From positions 1 to 8,114 of the forward strand of contig JAKART010000088.1 in assembly GCA_021819255.1 (NCBI GenBank): a stretch of 8,114 nt of DNA. Reading direction: 5' to 3'. The position numbers and the translations under genes are program-made. The stretch is from Acidobacteriota bacterium. Lineage in GTDB: Bacteria > Acidobacteriota > Terriglobia > Terriglobales > Acidobacteriaceae. The stretch's first letter is position 1. Each line of letters opens with the position of its first letter. Below are positions 1,672 through 7,958 of the stretch, in pieces. The notes under the pieces were generated by a model. The model saw nothing but the letters and a program-made list of their open reading frames with translations. It was not told the origin of the DNA and searched no databases.

Positions 1672-1947
1672 ATGACAACCGAAACCATCACCCTCGACAA
1701 CGGCCAAACCCTCACCGTCGCGCCGCTTACGCTGGCGCAGGTGGACGCTCTCCAAGCAGCGGCGGAAACCGGAGACAGGAAAGCCCTCACCACCGTCTAC
1801 ATGGACGCCGCGAACAACGCGGGAGCAAACTTCGACTACGACAGTTTCTGCGCAATTGTGCCGGCGTGCGACACGTTGAAAATTCAGGCGGCAATCATGC
1901 GCGTGAGCGGCGTGTCTCCGAAGGGGGAAGAGGCGGCGGCGAGCTAG
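1672..1947 (+). CDS. Tail assembly chaperone (gpG-like)
   Basis: This 91-residue protein starts at ATG 1672 behind AAGGAGG (1660-1666). It begins with a beta hairpin, TETITLDNGQTLTVAPLTLAQV, of the kind seen at the start of many small tail assembly chaperones. It continues as a predicted helical protein with an Ala-rich stretch (ALQAAAETGDRKALTTVYMDAANNAG). Chaperones of this class bind the tape measure protein and recruit tube subunits in the cytoplasm; they are absent from the finished virion. The last codons hold a run of five G (1923-1927), after which the -1 frame is open to 2117. This is the layout of the lambda G/GT pair. Position between tube and tape measure genes supports the call, although two unrelated genes intervene before the tape measure. 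Confidence 0.75.
   Translation: MTTETITLDNGQTLTVAPLTLAQVDALQAAAETGDRKALTTVYMDAANNAGANFDYDSFCAIVPACDTLKIQAAIMRVSGVSPKGEEAAAS
1923..1929 (+). promoter_or_regulatory. Candidate -1 ribosomal slippery site
   Basis: The chaperone frame reads AAG GGG GAA, so the heptamer is G GGG GAA. Slipping back one base lets the glycine tRNA re-pair fully on GGG. The glutamate tRNA would re-pair on GGA with a single G-U at the middle position. This is close to the lambda site G GGA AAG, although not a perfect X XXY YYZ. I see only a weak downstream stem (GCGGCG with TGCCGT) as possible stimulator. No other run of this kind is apparent in the part of the overlap nearest the chaperone stop, where such sites usually sit. 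Confidence 0.5.
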
Positions 1948-2117
1948 ACTGCGTGGGTCTGTTCTGCCGTCTGGTCACCGAGGGGGGAATCCCGCCATCC
2001 GAGGCGTGGAGTCTCCCCTTTCCCCACGTGGTTGCGCTGCTCCAGGCGTGGAATGCTCACCCTCCCCTGCGGTGGATGGTCGGGCGCTTTCTGGAGTACC
2101 GCGAGTCCGAATGGTAG
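1923..2117 (+). CDS. Frameshift extension of the tail chaperone (GT-like C-terminal part)
   Basis: This is the -1 frame relative to the chaperone gene, open through its stop and ending at TAG 2115-2117. The encoded segment looks like real protein: ELDCVGLFCRLVTEGG, then IPPSEAWSLPFPHVVALLQ, then a Trp-rich end, WMVGRFLEYRESEW. The PSEAW...PFPHVVALLQAW part resembles the short helical T domains that bind tape measure protein. No good ribosome binding site precedes an in-frame ATG. The nearest alternative start is the GTG at 1953, just after the upstream stop, without a clear Shine-Dalgarno. A single -1 slip at 1923-1929 would give a fusion of about 148 residues. That the frame is coding is likely; that it is reached by frameshifting rather than by reinitiation is inferred from the family. 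Confidence 0.65.
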   Translation, partial: GGRGGGELDCVGLFCRLVTEGGIPPSEAWSLPFPHVVALLQAWNAHPPLRWMVGRFLEYRESEW

Positions 2118-2144
2118 GCCGGTGCCGGATGCCGAAAGGGAATT

Positions 2145-2175
2145 TTGCACTCTTCGGCAAGAACTCTGGTACACT
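2145..2175 (+). promoter_or_regulatory. Candidate extended -10 promoter of the interposed cassette
   Basis: TACACT at 2170-2175 is preceded by TGG (2167-2169), an extended -10 arrangement. TTGCAC at 2145-2150 is a five-of-six match to the consensus -35 box. The spacer is 19 bases, longer than ideal, but the extended -10 would compensate. It lies between the chaperone stop and the first cassette gene, 20 bases upstream of its start codon. Its presence in the middle of an otherwise closely coupled late operon argues that the cassette is transcribed separately. This is motif reading only. Confidence 0.45.
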
Positions 2176-2195
2176 CTGGCACCGGAGGCAAAACC

Positions 2196-2654
2196 ATGCT
2201 GAGCCGTTCTCTACGTCTATTAACATTCCCTTTCTTGCTCCCCGTTTTTGGTGTCTGCGTGGCCGCGCAGGCAGCCACTTCCGACAGCACGCCTGTTCCC
2301 CCCGTTGTTCCTCTTACGGCTGGACTTCGGATTTTTGTAAGAGGGAACAATGAGGTCGCGGTCAACCTTCGACGAAAGCTGATTCCAAGCGAATGTTTTG
2401 TGGTCGTGCAGAACCCGAAGTACGCCGACGCCATTTTGGACGTAGAGCAGGACTTGGAGGCAAGCGGGGCGCAAGGTTCTTGGACCTCCTACGGAAGCGC
2501 AACGCTTACCGACACGGCAGGCGATCTCTTGTGGGCAGACTCAAAGCAAGGTATACCGGGCCTCTTGCACAGTGGAGCGGGGAATGCGGCCGGCGAGTTG
2601 GCTTCTTCCCTGTTTGCAAGTGCAGGGTGCAAGTTGAATGGAAAGAATAAGTAA
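2196..2654 (+). CDS. Secreted protein of unknown function, first cassette (moron) gene
   Basis: The start is ATG 2196, behind GGAGG at 2184-2188 with 7-base spacing; it gives 152 residues. A longer version from TTG 2145 is rejected because it would begin inside the promoter and hide the signal peptide. Residues 1-26 form a signal peptide: positive n-region (MLSRSLR), hydrophobic core (LLTFPFLLPVFGV) and an AQA cleavage motif, so the mature protein probably starts at ATSDST. A Pro-rich linker (about 29-40) leads into a compact domain: GLRIFVRGNNEVAVNLRRKL, then CFVVV, then the ADAILDVE motif (78-85), then GSWTSYGSATLTD. The ADAILDV core resembles secreted alpha/beta domains that I associate with Acidobacteriota. 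Two cysteines (67 and 145) could form a disulfide. It has no resemblance to tail proteins; a lysogen envelope function is inferred. Confidence 0.75.
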   Translation: MLSRSLRLLTFPFLLPVFGVCVAAQAATSDSTPVPPVVPLTAGLRIFVRGNNEVAVNLRRKLIPSECFVVVQNPKYADAILDVEQDLEASGAQGSWTSYGSATLTDTAGDLLWADSKQGIPGLLHSGAGNAAGELASSLFASAGCKLNGKNK

Positions 2655-2681
2655 CCCAGAAGCCATCCCGGAGGCAGCCCC

Positions 2682-3233
2682 ATGTTCAGGCGAGCATTTT
2701 CCATTTTCGTTTTCGCACCGGTGGCAGCCATCGCCTTCATTCTGGTGGGCGCGGTCGCCATGCAGCCCAGCCCGGATGCCGGAGTCGGCATTTTCGGCAC
2801 ACAAGCACAAACCACGCTTCCCCTTGAGCACGAGAAGGTCACGCTCGTTTCGAGCGCCAGCGGATTTTTTTCCTACAAAAGCTCTGGTGCTTGGGTCGTC
2901 CGCGGGGATAAATCCCCGGTGCGATTCCACGCCGGGATGCCCATATCAGTTGTCATACGGTTCGTCAGCGATCCCCACGCGCCCCTTCCAGCCCAAGAGT
3001 TCATCTTGCGTCGGCTAGATGTAAAGCGGAAGAGACGAGAAATTGTGATCGTGACGGGGCACAGTTCCGCCTTCGGATCATCGGTCCAGACAGATGCTAT
3101 GGCTGGTGCGCTCCCGGTCAAATTTACTCAGAACAGTCAGGGATACTCAAGCGACCCCACTCCTTTGCAGCCCGGCGAGTACGCGCTGACGCAGCCCGGA
3201 GGCTCCGACTGGTACTGCTTCGGCGTAGACTGA
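2682..3233 (+). CDS. Membrane-anchored or secreted protein of unknown function, second cassette gene
   Basis: The start is ATG 2682, behind GGAGG at 2670-2674; it gives 183 residues. The N-terminus (MFRR, then AFSIFVFAPVAAIAFILVGA) is an uncleaved anchor or a signal peptide, followed by a Pro/Gly linker to about residue 45. The exported domain has beta-rich segments (HEKVTLVSSASGFFSYK, then SPVRFHAGMPISVVIRF), a basic patch, RRLDVKRKRRE (110-120), then a VIVTGHSSAFGS strand, and ends with PLQPGEYALTQ and DWYCFGVD. The PGEYAL...YCFGVD ending recalls a conserved secreted domain I associate with Terriglobia; this is from memory. The gap from the preceding gene is 27 bases, and both share the GGAGGCA ribosome binding site style, so the two are probably co-transcribed. 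A terminator follows. The function is unknown; the domain lies outside the cytoplasm. Confidence 0.75.
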   Translation: MFRRAFSIFVFAPVAAIAFILVGAVAMQPSPDAGVGIFGTQAQTTLPLEHEKVTLVSSASGFFSYKSSGAWVVRGDKSPVRFHAGMPISVVIRFVSDPHAPLPAQEFILRRLDVKRKRREIVIVTGHSSAFGSSVQTDAMAGALPVKFTQNSQGYSSDPTPLQPGEYALTQPGGSDWYCFGVD

Positions 3234-3265
3234 CCCGTCGCGCAGCACTCCCCTTTCACAACCGC

Positions 3266-3287
3266 AAGCCGCCTACGGGCGGCTTTT
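3266..3287 (+). terminator. Rho-independent terminator closing the cassette
   Basis: The 8-base arm AAGCCGCC (3266-3273) pairs perfectly with GGCGGCTT (3278-3285) around the loop TACG, and the hairpin runs into TTTT (3284-3287). The loop with its C-G closing pair is a UNCG-type tetraloop, an unusually stable RNA fold. It lies 32 bases after the second cassette stop and six bases before the ribosome binding site of the tape measure gene. The short T-run makes it moderately strong. Readthrough or antitermination would be needed if the late tail transcript continues from upstream. Confidence 0.75.
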
Positions 3288-3302
3288 CTATTGGAGGAAA
3301 CC

Positions 3303-5858
3303 GTGGCAGATAACTATCAGATTTCAGTCGGCGTTAAGGCTGACTTTTCGGACCTAAAAGCCGCGCAGGCAGATGCGGCGGCATCCCTGAAGACGGCGCA
3401 GGCGCAGTGGGAAGAAGCCTACGCATCGTTGGGTAAGTCTGCCGAACAGGGCAGCGAGCAGGCCAAGACCGCACTGGCCGAGTATTCCTCTGCGCTGGAG
3501 AAGGCGAAGGAGCGTGTAACCGCGCTTGCGGCTCAACAGCTATCCGCCGCTACCGCAGCCAAAGCATCCGCAGAGGCGCAGAAGGTAGCCGCACGGGCTG
3601 CTGCTGAGGCGGAGCGAGAACTCGCCAACCAGACGCGGATCGCAGCCGAAGAAGCGCGCGCGATGAGCGGGAGCATGATGGGCCTGGCGCGGGTGAGCGC
3701 TGACTTCGGCACCAGGATGCTCGGCCTCGGCCCGATTGCGGAGATGGCATTCCCCGTGATCGGTGCTCTTGCGCTGGCGGACATGCTGGGGCAGCTCATC
3801 GGCAGCGTGGTCGATTTTTCCAATCGAGCCTCGGACCTCGCAACGCGCCTGAATGAAAACTGGCTGGACGGTGCCGTAGCGCAACTGGACGGTCTGGCAA
3901 AGAAGCTGAAGGAAGTGGATGCCGAAACGCTTCAGTTCCAGAGCGACATTGACCGGACCGTGTCTCAGCGATCACAGATTTCCTTTCAGATGATCGGCAT
4001 GAAGGAGGGAAAGAGCGCCGAGGACACCGCCCGCTCTATGGCCCTCCAGCAGGAGACGGACGGCCTGAAGGCGCAGTTGCCACACTTGCGCGAGAAGCTG
4101 TCCGTACTGAATGAACTGGCGCAGCGTCCGAGCTGGATGGACGCATCGGTCATCAGCCTCTTTACGTCCGACGCGACAGAGGAAAAGGCCAGGTCATTCG
4201 GGATCAATCCCAAGACGATGACCGGTCCTGCGGCATCCGTTGCTGCCGACTCTACCACCAAAGAGATCGAATCCTTCCAGCAGAAGATCGCCCTGAACGA
4301 GCAGCGAATGACGCAGCTCGCGCTCGATGCGTCGCAGGCTGGAACGCCGAAGACGAAAGCGGCGTCGAGCAGCCGGACCAACGAAGGGCGCGACGAGATG
4401 CTGGCGGACGAGACGGCGCTCGCCGACCAGAAGCGCGCGCATACAATGTCGCTTCAGGATGAGGAGGATTTCTGGGCAAAGCGTCTGAGCACGTTCAAGC
4501 ATGGCACCCAGCAGTATCTGGAAGTGGAGAACCACCTCAACTCCATCTCGGAGCAGATTCAGCGCCAGAATCAGCAGGTGAGGGATCGACTGGCAGCGCA
4601 GTCCGTTCAGGCAGCGCGGGAGCACCAGCGGCTGATCGAAGAGCAGAATCGCCAACTCGCTGCATCGGCCGCTCAGACGCAGCGCCAGATGGTCCAGGAT
4701 GCGCAAGGACAGGCTCGCGCTGCTCAGACGCAGATCGAGGCCAGCGCCAGAGTGGCCGAGGCGCGGGTGAATTACCAGCTCGCAACCGGAGCAATCAAGG
4801 ACCAGGCTGCGGCGTCAGAGATTGCGAAGATTCACGCGAAGAAGTACGCGGACGAGCTGCGCAGCCTGAACGACGAACTGCTCGCGCTGGAGCGGCTGGC
4901 CGCGCAAGGCATCGACACCACCGTGCAGCAGCAGACCGTGCGCAATCAGATCACGACCACGCAGTCGAATGCGCAGGCCACGGCATATCAGGATGCGACG
5001 AACGCCGCGCAGCAGAACCCCAACGACAGCGCAGCCGCGCAGTGGAAAAAAACTTGGTCCAACGCGCAAAAGAACGTCACGCAAGGCTTCAGCGATTCGA
5101 TGGCGCAATGGCTGCTTATCAGCGACGGCTACAATACGCAGTTCAGCGTTCTTATGGGGCGCATGATGCTCGGAGTAGCCGAGCAGTTCGCGTCATCCCT
5201 TATCAAGATGGGGGTAGACTACGCTGCGCACGAAGCGGAAAAGGTGGCCGCTCATCTCGCGTCCGAGGCCGAGCAGACAGCGGCGACAGCCGCCGGAACG
5301 GCGCAACGGATTGCCATTGGCACCTACCACCTCGGAATCGTCATCGCGCAGGATACTGCCAAACTGGCGATGCACATTGCTACCGAAACAGCGCACACAG
5401 CGGCTGTAATTGCGGGAGCTGCGGTGCGGCTCGCGGTTGAGATCGCCAGCGTCATGAAGACCATCGCGATGTACGCGGCGAGCGCAGCAGTGAAGGCGTG
5501 GGACGCGCTGGCGAGCATCCCGGTTGTCGGCCCCGCTCTTGGGGCTGCGGCAGCCGGTGCGGTTTTTGCCGGTGCGCTGGCATTCGCTGGTGCCTTCGAG
5601 CAAGGCGGCATCATCCCCGGATCGATTGGGTCTGCGGTGCCAATCCTCGGCCACGCAGGCGAGGCTGTGCTCCCTCAGCCGCTGACGGCGATGCTGACGA
5701 ACGCGGCAAGCAGCGGCGGCGGCGCAGGCGTCCACTACCACGACCACACCAACGTCAGCGCGCTCGATGGCCCCAGCGTAGCGGGGATGATGCGCACCCA
5801 TGGTCGCCTAGCGCGCGCGGAGTTCGCTCGCCAGATGCGCGTTGCCAACCATTTGTAA
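3303..5858 (+). CDS. Tail tape measure protein
   Basis: The chosen start is GTG 3303, five bases after GGAGG (3293-3297); an upstream TTG at 3291 would place the ribosome binding site inside the gene. The product has 851 residues. Residues about 15-120 are an Ala/Glu/Lys-rich coiled coil. A hydrophobic stretch follows at about 142-171 (MLGLGPIAEMAFPVIGALAL and following). More helical, Gln-rich coiled coil covers about 195-560, with few Gly or Pro. A conserved-looking segment, WLLISDGYNTQFSVLMGRMM, lies near 603-622. A second hydrophobic block lies at about 736-765, and the protein ends in QGGIIPGSIGSAVPILGHAGEAVLP and a His-rich HYHDH segment, both familiar from tape measure C-termini. The protein sets tail length and is ejected ahead of the DNA. 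At the usual ~0.15 nm per residue, the tail would be roughly 125 nm. Confidence 0.92.
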   Translation: MADNYQISVGVKADFSDLKAAQADAAASLKTAQAQWEEAYASLGKSAEQGSEQAKTALAEYSSALEKAKERVTALAAQQLSAATAAKASAEAQKVAARAAAEAERELANQTRIAAEEARAMSGSMMGLARVSADFGTRMLGLGPIAEMAFPVIGALALADMLGQLIGSVVDFSNRASDLATRLNENWLDGAVAQLDGLAKKLKEVDAETLQFQSDIDRTVSQRSQISFQMIGMKEGKSAEDTARSMALQQETDGLKAQLPHLREKLSVLNELAQRPSWMDASVISLFTSDATEEKARSFGINPKTMTGPAASVAADSTTKEIESFQQKIALNEQRMTQLALDASQAGTPKTKAASSSRTNEGRDEMLADETALADQKRAHTMSLQDEEDFWAKRLSTFKHGTQQYLEVENHLNSISEQIQRQNQQVRDRLAAQSVQAAREHQRLIEEQNRQLAASAAQTQRQMVQDAQGQARAAQTQIEASARVAEARVNYQLATGAIKDQAAASEIAKIHAKKYADELRSLNDELLALERLAAQGIDTTVQQQTVRNQITTTQSNAQATAYQDATNAAQQNPNDSAAAQWKKTWSNAQKNVTQGFSDSMAQWLLISDGYNTQFSVLMGRMMLGVAEQFASSLIKMGVDYAAHEAEKVAAHLASEAEQTAATAAGTAQRIAIGTYHLGIVIAQDTAKLAMHIATETAHTAAVIAGAAVRLAVEIASVMKTIAMYAASAAVKAWDALASIPVVGPALGAAAAGAVFAGALAFAGAFEQGGIIPGSIGSAVPILGHAGEAVLPQPLTAMLTNAASSGGGAGVHYHDHTNVSALDGPSVAGMMRTHGRLARAEFARQMRVANHL

Positions 5859-5873
5859 CCCGGAGTGACAAGC

Positions 5874-6554
5874 ATGGCCGTTACGTTCCCCAATCTTGTG
5901 CTGCCAACCTGCGGGCTGGGGTGGAACTTTGCCCGGCGACCGAAGTTCAACACCATCCATCAGCAGCCGCTCTCCAACCGTCACCCGGCGTCCGCAACGC
6001 TTCAGCAGTCCACCATCTTTGATATCGAGATCAGCTACAACGGGCTGCTCAACAACCCTGGCACATCGTCTAGCTATTCGGACGACGTGGCCTATCTTCA
6101 GGAGTTTTACGAGGCGTGCCGTGGCCCCTACGGCTATTTCACGTTCGATCCTTCGGTGAACCACTTCGCAAACATGGGGACTGCGGAGTCGATGACCGCG
6201 CTGAGCAACGGATACTTTGGGACGGGCAACGGCACGCAGACCGTCTTCCCCCTCTGGCGCTCAACCAGCGCGCTTGGGTGGACAACGCCAACGATGCTGG
6301 AGATGATCCAGAACGTGACAAGTCTGACTGCGGTGTACGCGAGTGGTGCGCCTCTTGCATCGACTGACTACACATTGTCGAACTTCCCGGCGACGCTAAC
6401 CTTTGCAACTGCTCCCCCGAACGGCGCAACGCTGACCTGGACGGGAACCTACAGCTACCTCTGTCACTTCGCGGAGGCGAGCCTGGATTTTAACGAGCTG
6501 ATGTACCAGCTATGGGAACTGAAGAGCCTAAAGCTCGAAACGATCCTCCTCTGA
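5874..6554 (+). CDS. Distal tail protein, DUF2460 family (GTA gp12-like)
   Basis: The start is ATG 5874 with CGGAG at 5861-5865; GTG 5865 in the same frame is rejected because it overlaps that site. The product has 226 residues. The N-terminus MAVTFPNLVLPTCGLGW, then the FNTIHQQPLSNRHPAS segment, then YLQEFYEACRGPYGYFTFDP (about 74-93), match the DUF2460 layout, in which the Rxx..G..GgF.f.DP stretch is characteristic. Residues about 113-198 form a beta-rich insertion (GYFGTGNGTQTVFPL ... ATLTFATAPPNGATLTWTGTY), and the family returns at the end with HFAEASLDFNELMYQLWEL. In the gene transfer agent this protein forms the ring joining the tube to the baseplate hub. It lies 15 bases after the tape measure stop and 7 bases before the hub gene, the family's usual neighbours. 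Confidence 0.88.
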   Translation: MAVTFPNLVLPTCGLGWNFARRPKFNTIHQQPLSNRHPASATLQQSTIFDIEISYNGLLNNPGTSSSYSDDVAYLQEFYEACRGPYGYFTFDPSVNHFANMGTAESMTALSNGYFGTGNGTQTVFPLWRSTSALGWTTPTMLEMIQNVTSLTAVYASGAPLASTDYTLSNFPATLTFATAPPNGATLTWTGTYSYLCHFAEASLDFNELMYQLWELKSLKLETILL

Positions 6555-6561
6555 GGCGCAC

Positions 6562-7515
6562 ATGAAAAACTTTTCGGCTGACTTGCTGGCGCTGCTGGCG
6601 AGCGGCGTTCCCATTGACTATCGCGACCTGATTACCATCGGCCCAACGCTCAACGGGCAGACGATGTACATCACCACCGGCTCGCTGCCGGTGCAGTTTG
6701 GCGCGAACACGTTCCAGCCGACGCAGTTCGGAGTCTGGAAGCGCGGCAAGATCGAGAGCAAGATCGGCCTGGAGTCGAGTGCCTGCGACCTGAAGGTGAT
6801 CGCAGACAACGGCGCTTTCTCAGCGCAGTTTCCAGGCACAAGTGCGCTGCTCATCGATGGAATCAAGTTCGGGCTGCTCGGCAATGCGAATGTCACCATC
6901 GAGCGCCTGTATAACTCGGCTTACCTGAGTGGCTACGCCTTCCCGGCGACAACAGGCCCCACCGGCGGCTCGCTGTTGGAAGTAAAGTTTGCCGGCCAAG
7001 TGGCGGATATCAGCCAGCTCGGACTAACAAAGGCGACCGTGACGGTGCAGGACTACCTCTACCTGCTCAACATTCCTGTTCCACGCCGACTGATTCAGCC
7101 GTCCTGCTCGCACACCCTATACGACGTAGCCTGCACGATGGCGAAGTCCACCTTCACCGTGAGCGGATCGGTGGGTAGCGTAACCACATCGGCGGAGTTT
7201 GTGACGGCTGCGGCGCTGAACGCTGTGACTGCGAAGGGAACCTTTGCGCAGGGGGTGCTGACGTGGAAGACGGGAGCGAATGCGGGTATCTCGTACACAG
7301 TACGAGCGTGGACGCCCGGAAGTTCCAGCGCGACGGTGCAACTAGACGTTGCGCCCATCTTTCCCATCGCCGACGGTGATACGTTTTCGGTCGCGCAGGG
7401 GTGCAACAAGACGGTCACATCGTGCGTGGATTTTCAGGGCGCGACAGCGGCGATGGTTCACTACGGGGGGGAGCCGGATACACCGGTGCCGGAAACCGCC
7501 GTGGGCGGTGCGTAG
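6562..7515 (+). CDS. Tail hub protein, DUF2163 / BR0599 family (GTA gp13-like, gpL-like)
   Basis: The start is ATG 6562 with GAGG (6553-6556) overlapping the preceding stop; the product has 317 residues. The N-terminal part (about 18-170) is the DUF2163-type beta domain, with FGVWKRGKIESKIGLESSACDLKV as a typical stretch and a 'DYLYLLNIPVPRRLIQPSC' junction near 164-182. Cysteines lie at 182 and 191 (CX8C) and at 281 and 288 (CX6C, GCNKTVTSC). These spacings equal those of the iron-sulfur cysteines I recall for lambda gpL (173, 182, 205, 212), and gene transfer agent gp13 also carries an Fe-S cluster. A beta domain of about 90 residues lies between the pairs (192-280). The C-terminus, YGGEPDTPVPETAVGGA, corresponds to the family's conserved end. 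It forms the hub beneath the distal tail ring. The stop overlaps the next start by one base. Confidence 0.88.
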   Translation: MKNFSADLLALLASGVPIDYRDLITIGPTLNGQTMYITTGSLPVQFGANTFQPTQFGVWKRGKIESKIGLESSACDLKVIADNGAFSAQFPGTSALLIDGIKFGLLGNANVTIERLYNSAYLSGYAFPATTGPTGGSLLEVKFAGQVADISQLGLTKATVTVQDYLYLLNIPVPRRLIQPSCSHTLYDVACTMAKSTFTVSGSVGSVTTSAEFVTAAALNAVTAKGTFAQGVLTWKTGANAGISYTVRAWTPGSSSATVQLDVAPIFPIADGDTFSVAQGCNKTVTSCVDFQGATAAMVHYGGEPDTPVPETAVGGA

Positions 7516-7958
7516 TGACATCCCAGGAATCGCGCCAGGCGTTGGTGCAGGAGGCTCTGACGTGGCTGGGCACCCCTTACCATGCCAGCGGCCAGGTTAA
7601 GGGCGCAGGGACGAATTGTGCGCAGTTCATCTACGGGGCAGCGAAGAACGCCGGAGTGTTTCCATCCGGCACCCCGGAGCCGCGCTGGTACACGCCACAG
7701 CTTGCCACGCACACCCGCGACGAGCGACTGATCGGATATCTGCACTCCTACGGCGCGCGCGAGATTGCCGAGGACGCCGTACAGCCGGGCGATGTCGTTG
7801 TCTACCGCAGCGGACAGGCACACGGGCATATCGCCCTCATCGTTTCGTGGCCGACGATCATTCACGCTCTCGCGCCTGCCGGGTGCCAGTTGGGGAACGT
7901 CGCAGACGGACAGCTCGGACGCATGGCGCGAAAATACTTCAGCTTCTGGAGTGACTGA
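7515..7958 (+). CDS. NlpC/P60 family cell wall peptidase (GTA gp14-like tail protein)
   Basis: The start is GTG 7515, overlapping the TAG of the hub gene (TAGTG). The ribosome binding site is weak, so translation is probably coupled. The product is 147 residues. The NlpC/P60 features are: an N-terminal helix and WLGTPYHASG (17-26), nucleophile Cys35 in GTNCAQFIYGAAKNAG, a PGDVVVYRSG strand (91-100), catalytic His in AHGHIALIV (His105, with His103 beside it), and a third polar residue, His117 (TIIHALA). The usual Asp before the cysteine is Asn here, which phage members tolerate. The enzyme would hydrolyse peptide bonds of peptidoglycan stem peptides during tail penetration. There is no signal peptide, as expected for a structural tail enzyme. 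Lambda gpK and gene transfer agent gp14 hold the same position. Confidence 0.88.
   Translation: MTSQESRQALVQEALTWLGTPYHASGQVKGAGTNCAQFIYGAAKNAGVFPSGTPEPRWYTPQLATHTRDERLIGYLHSYGAREIAEDAVQPGDVVVYRSGQAHGHIALIVSWPTIIHALAPAGCQLGNVADGQLGRMARKYFSFWSD

Follow-up and report, generated by a model that had tools for sequence, protein, structure and literature searches.

The closest described counterpart of the locus presented here is gp15 of Escherichia phage HK97 (NC_002167), a gene with an annotated moron product. It follows the frameshifted tail gene and precedes the tape measure gene on the same strand, and a putative terminator stands immediately ahead of the latter. The gp15 product is a superinfection-exclusion protein that is predicted to reside in the inner membrane, according to PMC10883804. 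Other phage-encoded exported exclusion proteins include Ltp of phage TP-J34 and Glo of Vibrio phage K139, which act outside the cytoplasmic membrane, with the tape measure protein as the target of Ltp (PMC10883804 and PMC3952083). In Pseudomonas phage JBD26, the late-operon moron Tab recognizes the tape measure protein of invading phages (PMC10884400).

The locus examined herein occupies the same slot as gp15 and likewise closes with a putative terminator ahead of the tape measure gene. However, gp15 is a single protein of 62 aa, whereas this cassette encodes two larger proteins, of 152 and 183 aa, that carry export-type N-termini and look soluble after export. BLASTP of each protein against gp15 revealed no sequence relation (E 14 and 8.8). 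Ltp and Glo differ from the cassette products, Ltp being a lipoprotein whose gene is located in the lysogeny module and Glo being described as a soluble, periplasmic protein. Tab is encoded between the terminase genes and blocks tail assembly, a step that requires action inside the cell, whereas the cassette products are predicted to be exported. In the accessible parts of the literature on acidobacterial prophages, morons, tape measure genes and superinfection exclusion, including PMC11924767, no report seems to describe the cassette. What is new is the two protein families and their recurrent pairing; the kind of slot was already known.

A cassette between tail chaperone and tape measure genes

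The analyzed stretch, hereafter the window, is the whole 8114-base contig of a metagenome bin (G000:C410). No integrase is visible within this 8.1-kb contig, and an Rfam scan of the whole window returned no match. The named records containing relatives are Acidobacteria bins and Silvibacterium, which makes an acidobacterium the probable host. The features discussed below are as follows, with L009 denoting a contig from an Acidobacteria bin.

56-580: tail terminator, named from placement and size
590-1327: major-tail-like gene, named mainly from position and size
1434-1661: small membrane gene, 75 aa with two hydrophobic stretches, between the major-tail-like gene and the chaperone
1672-2117, plus strand: predicted tail chaperone, occupying 1672-1947, and a second, overlapping frame that extends to 2117, named from position, size and frames
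2143-2175, plus strand: likely cassette promoter, TTTTGCAC and TGGTACACT separated by 16 nt, from comparison with L009
2184-2188, plus strand: GGAGG before gene1, from sequence
2196-2654, plus strand: gene1, open frame of 152 aa, predicted exported
2519-2548, plus strand: stretch of gene1 matching the left-most spacer unit of L009 at 26/30 positions (4 differences)
2682-3233, plus strand: gene2, open frame of 183 aa, predicted exported, predicted Ig-like beta sandwich
3266-3290, plus strand: terminator-like hairpin (3266-3285) with a stem of 8 pairs and a TACG loop, followed by a T-rich run
3303-5858, plus strand: predicted tape measure gene, 851 aa, named from position and length
5874-6554: DUF2460 gene, with Pfam support
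6562-7515: baseplate hub, with Pfam support
7515-7958: NlpC/P60 gene, with Pfam support

The predicted chaperone gave one weak PHROG match (phrog_7947, E 0.004, a family of unknown function). The tape measure gene produced no useful PHROG match and no Pfam match, and is related by tblastn to a long gene of contig L026. The small membrane gene has a codon z-score of -1.2, like the tail genes, and has neither a Pfam or PHROG match nor a counterpart at that place in the relatives compared.

The initial annotation had placed a two-gene cassette between the tail chaperone and the tape measure gene, and this placement holds, with the chaperone ending at 2117 and the tape measure gene starting at 3303. 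It had also proposed that related prophages be compared for an allele in which these two genes are directly joined. A search for DUF2460 matched 29 of 300 genomes and, together with a tape measure search, yielded 10 tail regions. Five of these were comparable, having a recognizable homologous major tail gene (29-43% identity) with chaperone and tape measure genes behind it. The others were left out: in L070 and L075 different genes precede the tape measure gene, contig ends truncate L027 and L071, and L077 was left unannotated. Gene maps were made with a simple purpose-made gene caller, and the second chaperone frame in the relatives was named by position. In four of the five relatives (L072, L073, L074 and L076) the slot is empty, the ORF placed as the second chaperone frame either overlapping the tape measure gene or stopping 10 nt or less before it. 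In the fifth, L026, which belongs to the same genus, about 410 nt separate the two genes and hold one gene on the opposite strand (L026:7278-7631, minus strand, 117 aa), with weak likeness to YbjQ_1 and a zinc ribbon, below cut-offs. Taken together, the empty alleles and the different gene in L026 demonstrate that gene1 and gene2 are an inserted cassette in a slot able to hold different cargo. The outcome that the initial annotation had named as contradicting its reading, namely that every relative carries both genes as conserved virion components, is thus not what the relatives show. Outside the five, a small gene abuts the tape measure gene in the IMG/VR contigs L029 and L030 and in Acinetobacter phage Effie.

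Apparent insertions were also seen elsewhere in the acidobacterial tail modules. These are an exported-looking gene beside the major-tail-like gene (L070:7674-8333, plus strand), a weak zinc-ribbon gene between the tape measure and DUF2460 genes (L072:3131-3676, minus strand), and an HNH-type gene, identified by eye, between the major tail and chaperone genes (L076:7107-7598, plus strand).

Composition sets the cassette apart from its surroundings. Against a leave-one-out codon table of the tail genes, gene1 and gene2 score z of -7.5 and -5.8, compared with -2.8 to 0.7 for the seven tail genes themselves. The different codon habits noted at the outset are thereby borne out, as is the lower GC content, but the latter is only slight (0.553 for gene1 and 0.583 for gene2, compared with 0.580-0.647 for the other genes of the window); GC3 is clearly lower, at 0.58 and 0.66 relative to 0.70-0.78 elsewhere. 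Both genes also deviate from a codon table of the bin, built from 102 genes on 20 contigs (z of -6.9 and -4.2, tail genes -1.7 to 0.1). Of 21 host genes similar in length, the lowest scores -7.0 when the host table is used, for which the 5% point is -4.2; the corresponding values for the tail table are -8.7 and -6.9, so that the -5.8 of gene2 alone is not distinct from host genes. The cassette is therefore foreign to the phage and, for the host, unusual although not unique, the case being stronger for gene1. On codon usage, the idea that both are ordinary genes of this host was rejected, and the derivation from this host suggested initially is not supported. Instead, because both genes deviate from the bin as well as from the phage, codon usage points to an accessory gene pool.

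Given the empty alleles, the other gene in the same-genus slot, the foreign codon usage, and the terminator-like hairpin and conserved promoter-like footprint described below, the cassette is very likely an inserted moron, as had been proposed.

Predicted expression signals of the cassette

The sequence TGGTACACT is present at 2167-2175, and together with the upstream block TTTTGCAC it constitutes a likely promoter of the cassette's own. The same two blocks, at the same spacing, precede the gene1 relative of L009 as TTTTGCAC and TGGTAnAnT. Within the blocks, 15 of 17 positions agree between the window and L009, while the intervening stretch agrees at 4 of 16, i.e., at random. Agreement of this degree occurs in random window/L009 stretches with a frequency of 6e-6 for the blocks, a figure that is too favorable since the blocks were picked after inspection, and of 2e-4 for the full 37 nt. 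The promoter is considered likely because sequence and spacing are kept in L009 despite the reversed order of the two genes there. The candidate promoter of the initial annotation is present as a motif and draws its support solely from the comparison with L009; a sigma-70 consensus scan of the window did not list it. For a transcript beginning near 2182, the 5' leader would measure about 14 nt and carry GGAGG close to its end, a tight arrangement. The GGAGG sites reported before each gene are indeed there, yet the chaperone gene is preceded by one too, and such sites were rejected as a hallmark of the cassette.

The hairpin downstream of gene2 (3266-3285) and the T-run behind it form the sole site of this strength on either strand of the window, and a like hairpin appeared on one strand in 3 of 200 dinucleotide shuffles. 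A laxer terminator scan listed 7 sites against 7.0 expected, with this hairpin at the top. Taken as a whole, the 69-nt stretch has no unusual degree of structure (z -1.1), with 23 of 200 shuffles folding equally well. The terminator claimed before the tape measure gene is thus present as a hairpin, and termination there is predicted. From these signals, the cassette is probably transcribed on its own.

Two protein families and their recurrent pairing

Export was called with a simple hydropathy-and-charge rule made for this analysis, which passes 9 of 9 gene1 proteins, 38 of 55 gene2 proteins (including that of the window; the 17 misses include some that seem truncated at the start) and 7 of 8 A2 rows. 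Within the window, the rule selects gene1, gene2 and the hub protein, the last surely falsely. The export-type N-termini that had been recognized in both products thereby find support as a prediction, and the two proteins are very probably exported.

Searching 5.8 billion proteins identified 8 relatives besides gene1 itself, and cysteines 67 and 145 are invariant in all 9 aligned sequences. A broader profile matches in 31 of 400 related genomes, a count that includes the genome of the window itself. Between the window and L009, the mature part of gene1 (codons 41-117) has a dN of 0.035 and a dS of 0.615, and the first 40 codons have 0.47 and 1.08, respectively; gene1 is under strong constraint, measurable in this one pair. 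No entry of Pfam, NCBIfam or PADLOC scored above cut-off with gene1, its profile had no match in the PDB, and a distant relative matched DpdG at 20.8 bits against a cut-off of 80. The fold prediction from nine sequences is unusable (mean pLDDT 48.8), and its structural matches were set aside. GenBank phages searched by tblastn with a gene1 relative and gene2, and plasmids searched by tblastn with a gene1 relative, gave no hit, and viral contigs searched with gene1, gene2, A1 and the tape measure protein contained no confirmed relative.

For gene2, a single-sequence protein search found only itself, and a profile found 54 more. This profile matches in 215 of the 400 related genomes, own included, with many weak partial matches to the C-terminal half within larger proteins; the incidence of the two profiles agrees with the initial view of the families as native to the host phylum. 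The relatives in L078, L079 and L082 appear to lie amid ordinary chromosomal genes. The product is predicted to be an Ig-like beta sandwich, modeled confidently (mean pLDDT 83.0, pTM 0.74). Structure searches returned no telling match, and none among viral structures at E 0.001; the profile matched PDB entries only over chance-level stretches, mostly of copper nitrite reductases. Pfam, NCBIfam and PADLOC gave nothing above cut-off.

The two families adjoin in four other loci (L009, G064, G224 and G308), with varying order. In L009 the order is reversed relative to the window, the gene2 relative (37% identity over 154 aa) standing ahead of the gene1 relative (76% over 117 codons). In G064, gene2 is present only as a C-terminal remnant. 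The stop and start codons of the pair touch in G308, and the frames overlap by 4 nt in G224. Among 13 other genomes with a strong gene1 match, gene2 lies next door in 3, one of which, G224, is not independent as its gene1 entered profile A3 because it had been seen beside gene2; in three of the 13 genomes the scanned stretch was shortened by a contig end. A looser vicinity in G301, with weak matches on opposite strands, was left out of this count. The twenty host contigs (125 kb) contained no match to either profile, and when the genome of L009 was searched for further copies of its pair, only the pair itself came up. No hub-type phage gene turned up in the L009 and L010 genomes, but this search was run without a control, and so shows nothing.

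The surroundings of the pair include, in G308, ArdC (Pfam) and a recombinase-like ORF and, in G064, an integrase-like ORF, both ORFs being recognized by eye. G258, with gene2 alone, has a phage integrase and a VanY-like endolysin match below its cut-off. About 0.5 kb from the pair in G224 there is a relative with 59% identity to the L026 slot gene (L083:3572-3943), which indicates that the cargo of the slot and that of this region overlap.

Aside from an 18-column stretch in the signal region, the gene1 and gene2 families have no mutual relation. One unnamed domain, about 60 aa long and N-terminal, occurs in fusion with a gene1-type domain in L148 (L148:4854-5972) and with gene2-type domains in L023, L024, L025 and L152; in L152 an ambiguous base interrupts the frame of the fused protein, which was kept as it stands. 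Because the families adjoin in four other loci and each is fused to this one shared domain, gene1 and gene2 probably act together and serve one process. Proteins with a gene2-type or gene1-type domain that end in PEGA domains were also observed (L147:7397-8512, minus strand, and L152:6833-8041, plus strand).

In L009 (positions 1-1385), the gene2-gene1 pair leads directly into a type II CRISPR array. The gene1 relative breaks off exactly at the first repeat of the array, which consists of six 36-nt repeats at 66 nt spacing and adjoins cas2, cas1 and cas9 of type II. Protein P0002 is, by eye, the same as the L009 gene1 product up to the breakpoint and then continues to the usual C-terminus. The left-most 30-nt unit matches gene1 of the window as listed above; the other six 30-nt units tested match the window at no more than 19/30, i.e., not at all. 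The left-most unit is best read as a spacer against gene1, at which the assembler crossed over; a spacer equal to a piece of gene1 would mean that ancestors of the L009 bacterium met gene1 as an invader. An overlap of 30 nt is short for assemblers, and the junction may alternatively be a real rearrangement.

Possible functions of the pair

Together, these observations allow a tentative account in which two genes whose codon usage is foreign, carried as an insert between the predicted chaperone and tape measure genes, would be transcribed during phage dormancy from a promoter of their own, with transcription stopped by the terminator-like hairpin. The two exported proteins would then act jointly in the periplasm and interfere with genome injection by related long-tailed phages, in the manner of HK97 gp15. 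We give this explanation as a whole, a moron pair that is transcribed in dormancy and blocks related phages at entry, an even chance. Superinfection exclusion at genome entry, taken by itself, has somewhat less than that; its strongest support is that place and layout match those of HK97 gp15. On the other side, neither protein is related to gp15 in sequence, the contig shows no integrase, PADLOC has no defense model for either gene, and the widespread gene2 relatives, several apparently chromosomal, would fit a general envelope role. If the account is correct, a little-studied soil phylum has phages in which, as in HK97, cargo is accommodated at the junction of the chaperone and tape measure genes, and two unnamed protein families become candidate phage-exclusion factors. 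The slot also provides a rule for finding cargo, namely to inspect the DNA between the chaperone and the tape measure gene. A bolder and unlikely version is that the pair represents a new two-protein envelope system of Acidobacteriota, passed among phages, integrative elements and chromosomes, that would shut the cell surface to long-tailed phages and for which the slot would be a trading post.

Another reading is lysogenic conversion that involves no exclusion, the pair altering the envelope for the benefit of the cell (surface, stress or adhesion) as its chromosomal relatives may. Such a role, which we regard as rather unlikely, would accommodate the 215 of 400 genomes with gene2-type domains, many inside larger proteins and some with PEGA, as well as the fusion partner that gene2-type and gene1-type domains have in common in host proteins. 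It sits less well with the recurrence of the compact two-gene form beside ArdC or recombinase-like genes, although this is circumstantial; anti-invader and exclusion functions are common in such neighborhoods. The codon usage, foreign to phage and bin alike, and the absence of the pair from four of the five comparable relatives would equally suit a recent hitchhiker, an accessory pair that sits in a tolerated slot and is at present useless to both phage and lysogen. The strong constraint on gene1 in the pair measured, the tidy borders, the terminator-like hairpin and the retained upstream footprint make this improbable.

That the exported-looking proteins are instead virion or tail-assembly parts is very improbable: both genes lie within the tail genes on the same strand, but they are missing from four of the five comparable tail modules, have relatives on bacterial chromosomes and other elements, and encode export-type N-termini. 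An assembly artefact that wrongly joined the two genes into a phage contig has to be considered for a metagenome bin that is 67% complete and in 465 contigs. It is scarcely credible here, as identical proteins are each found on 5 contigs, the longest of 20,922 and 18,415 nt, and the insert ends at gene borders on both sides.
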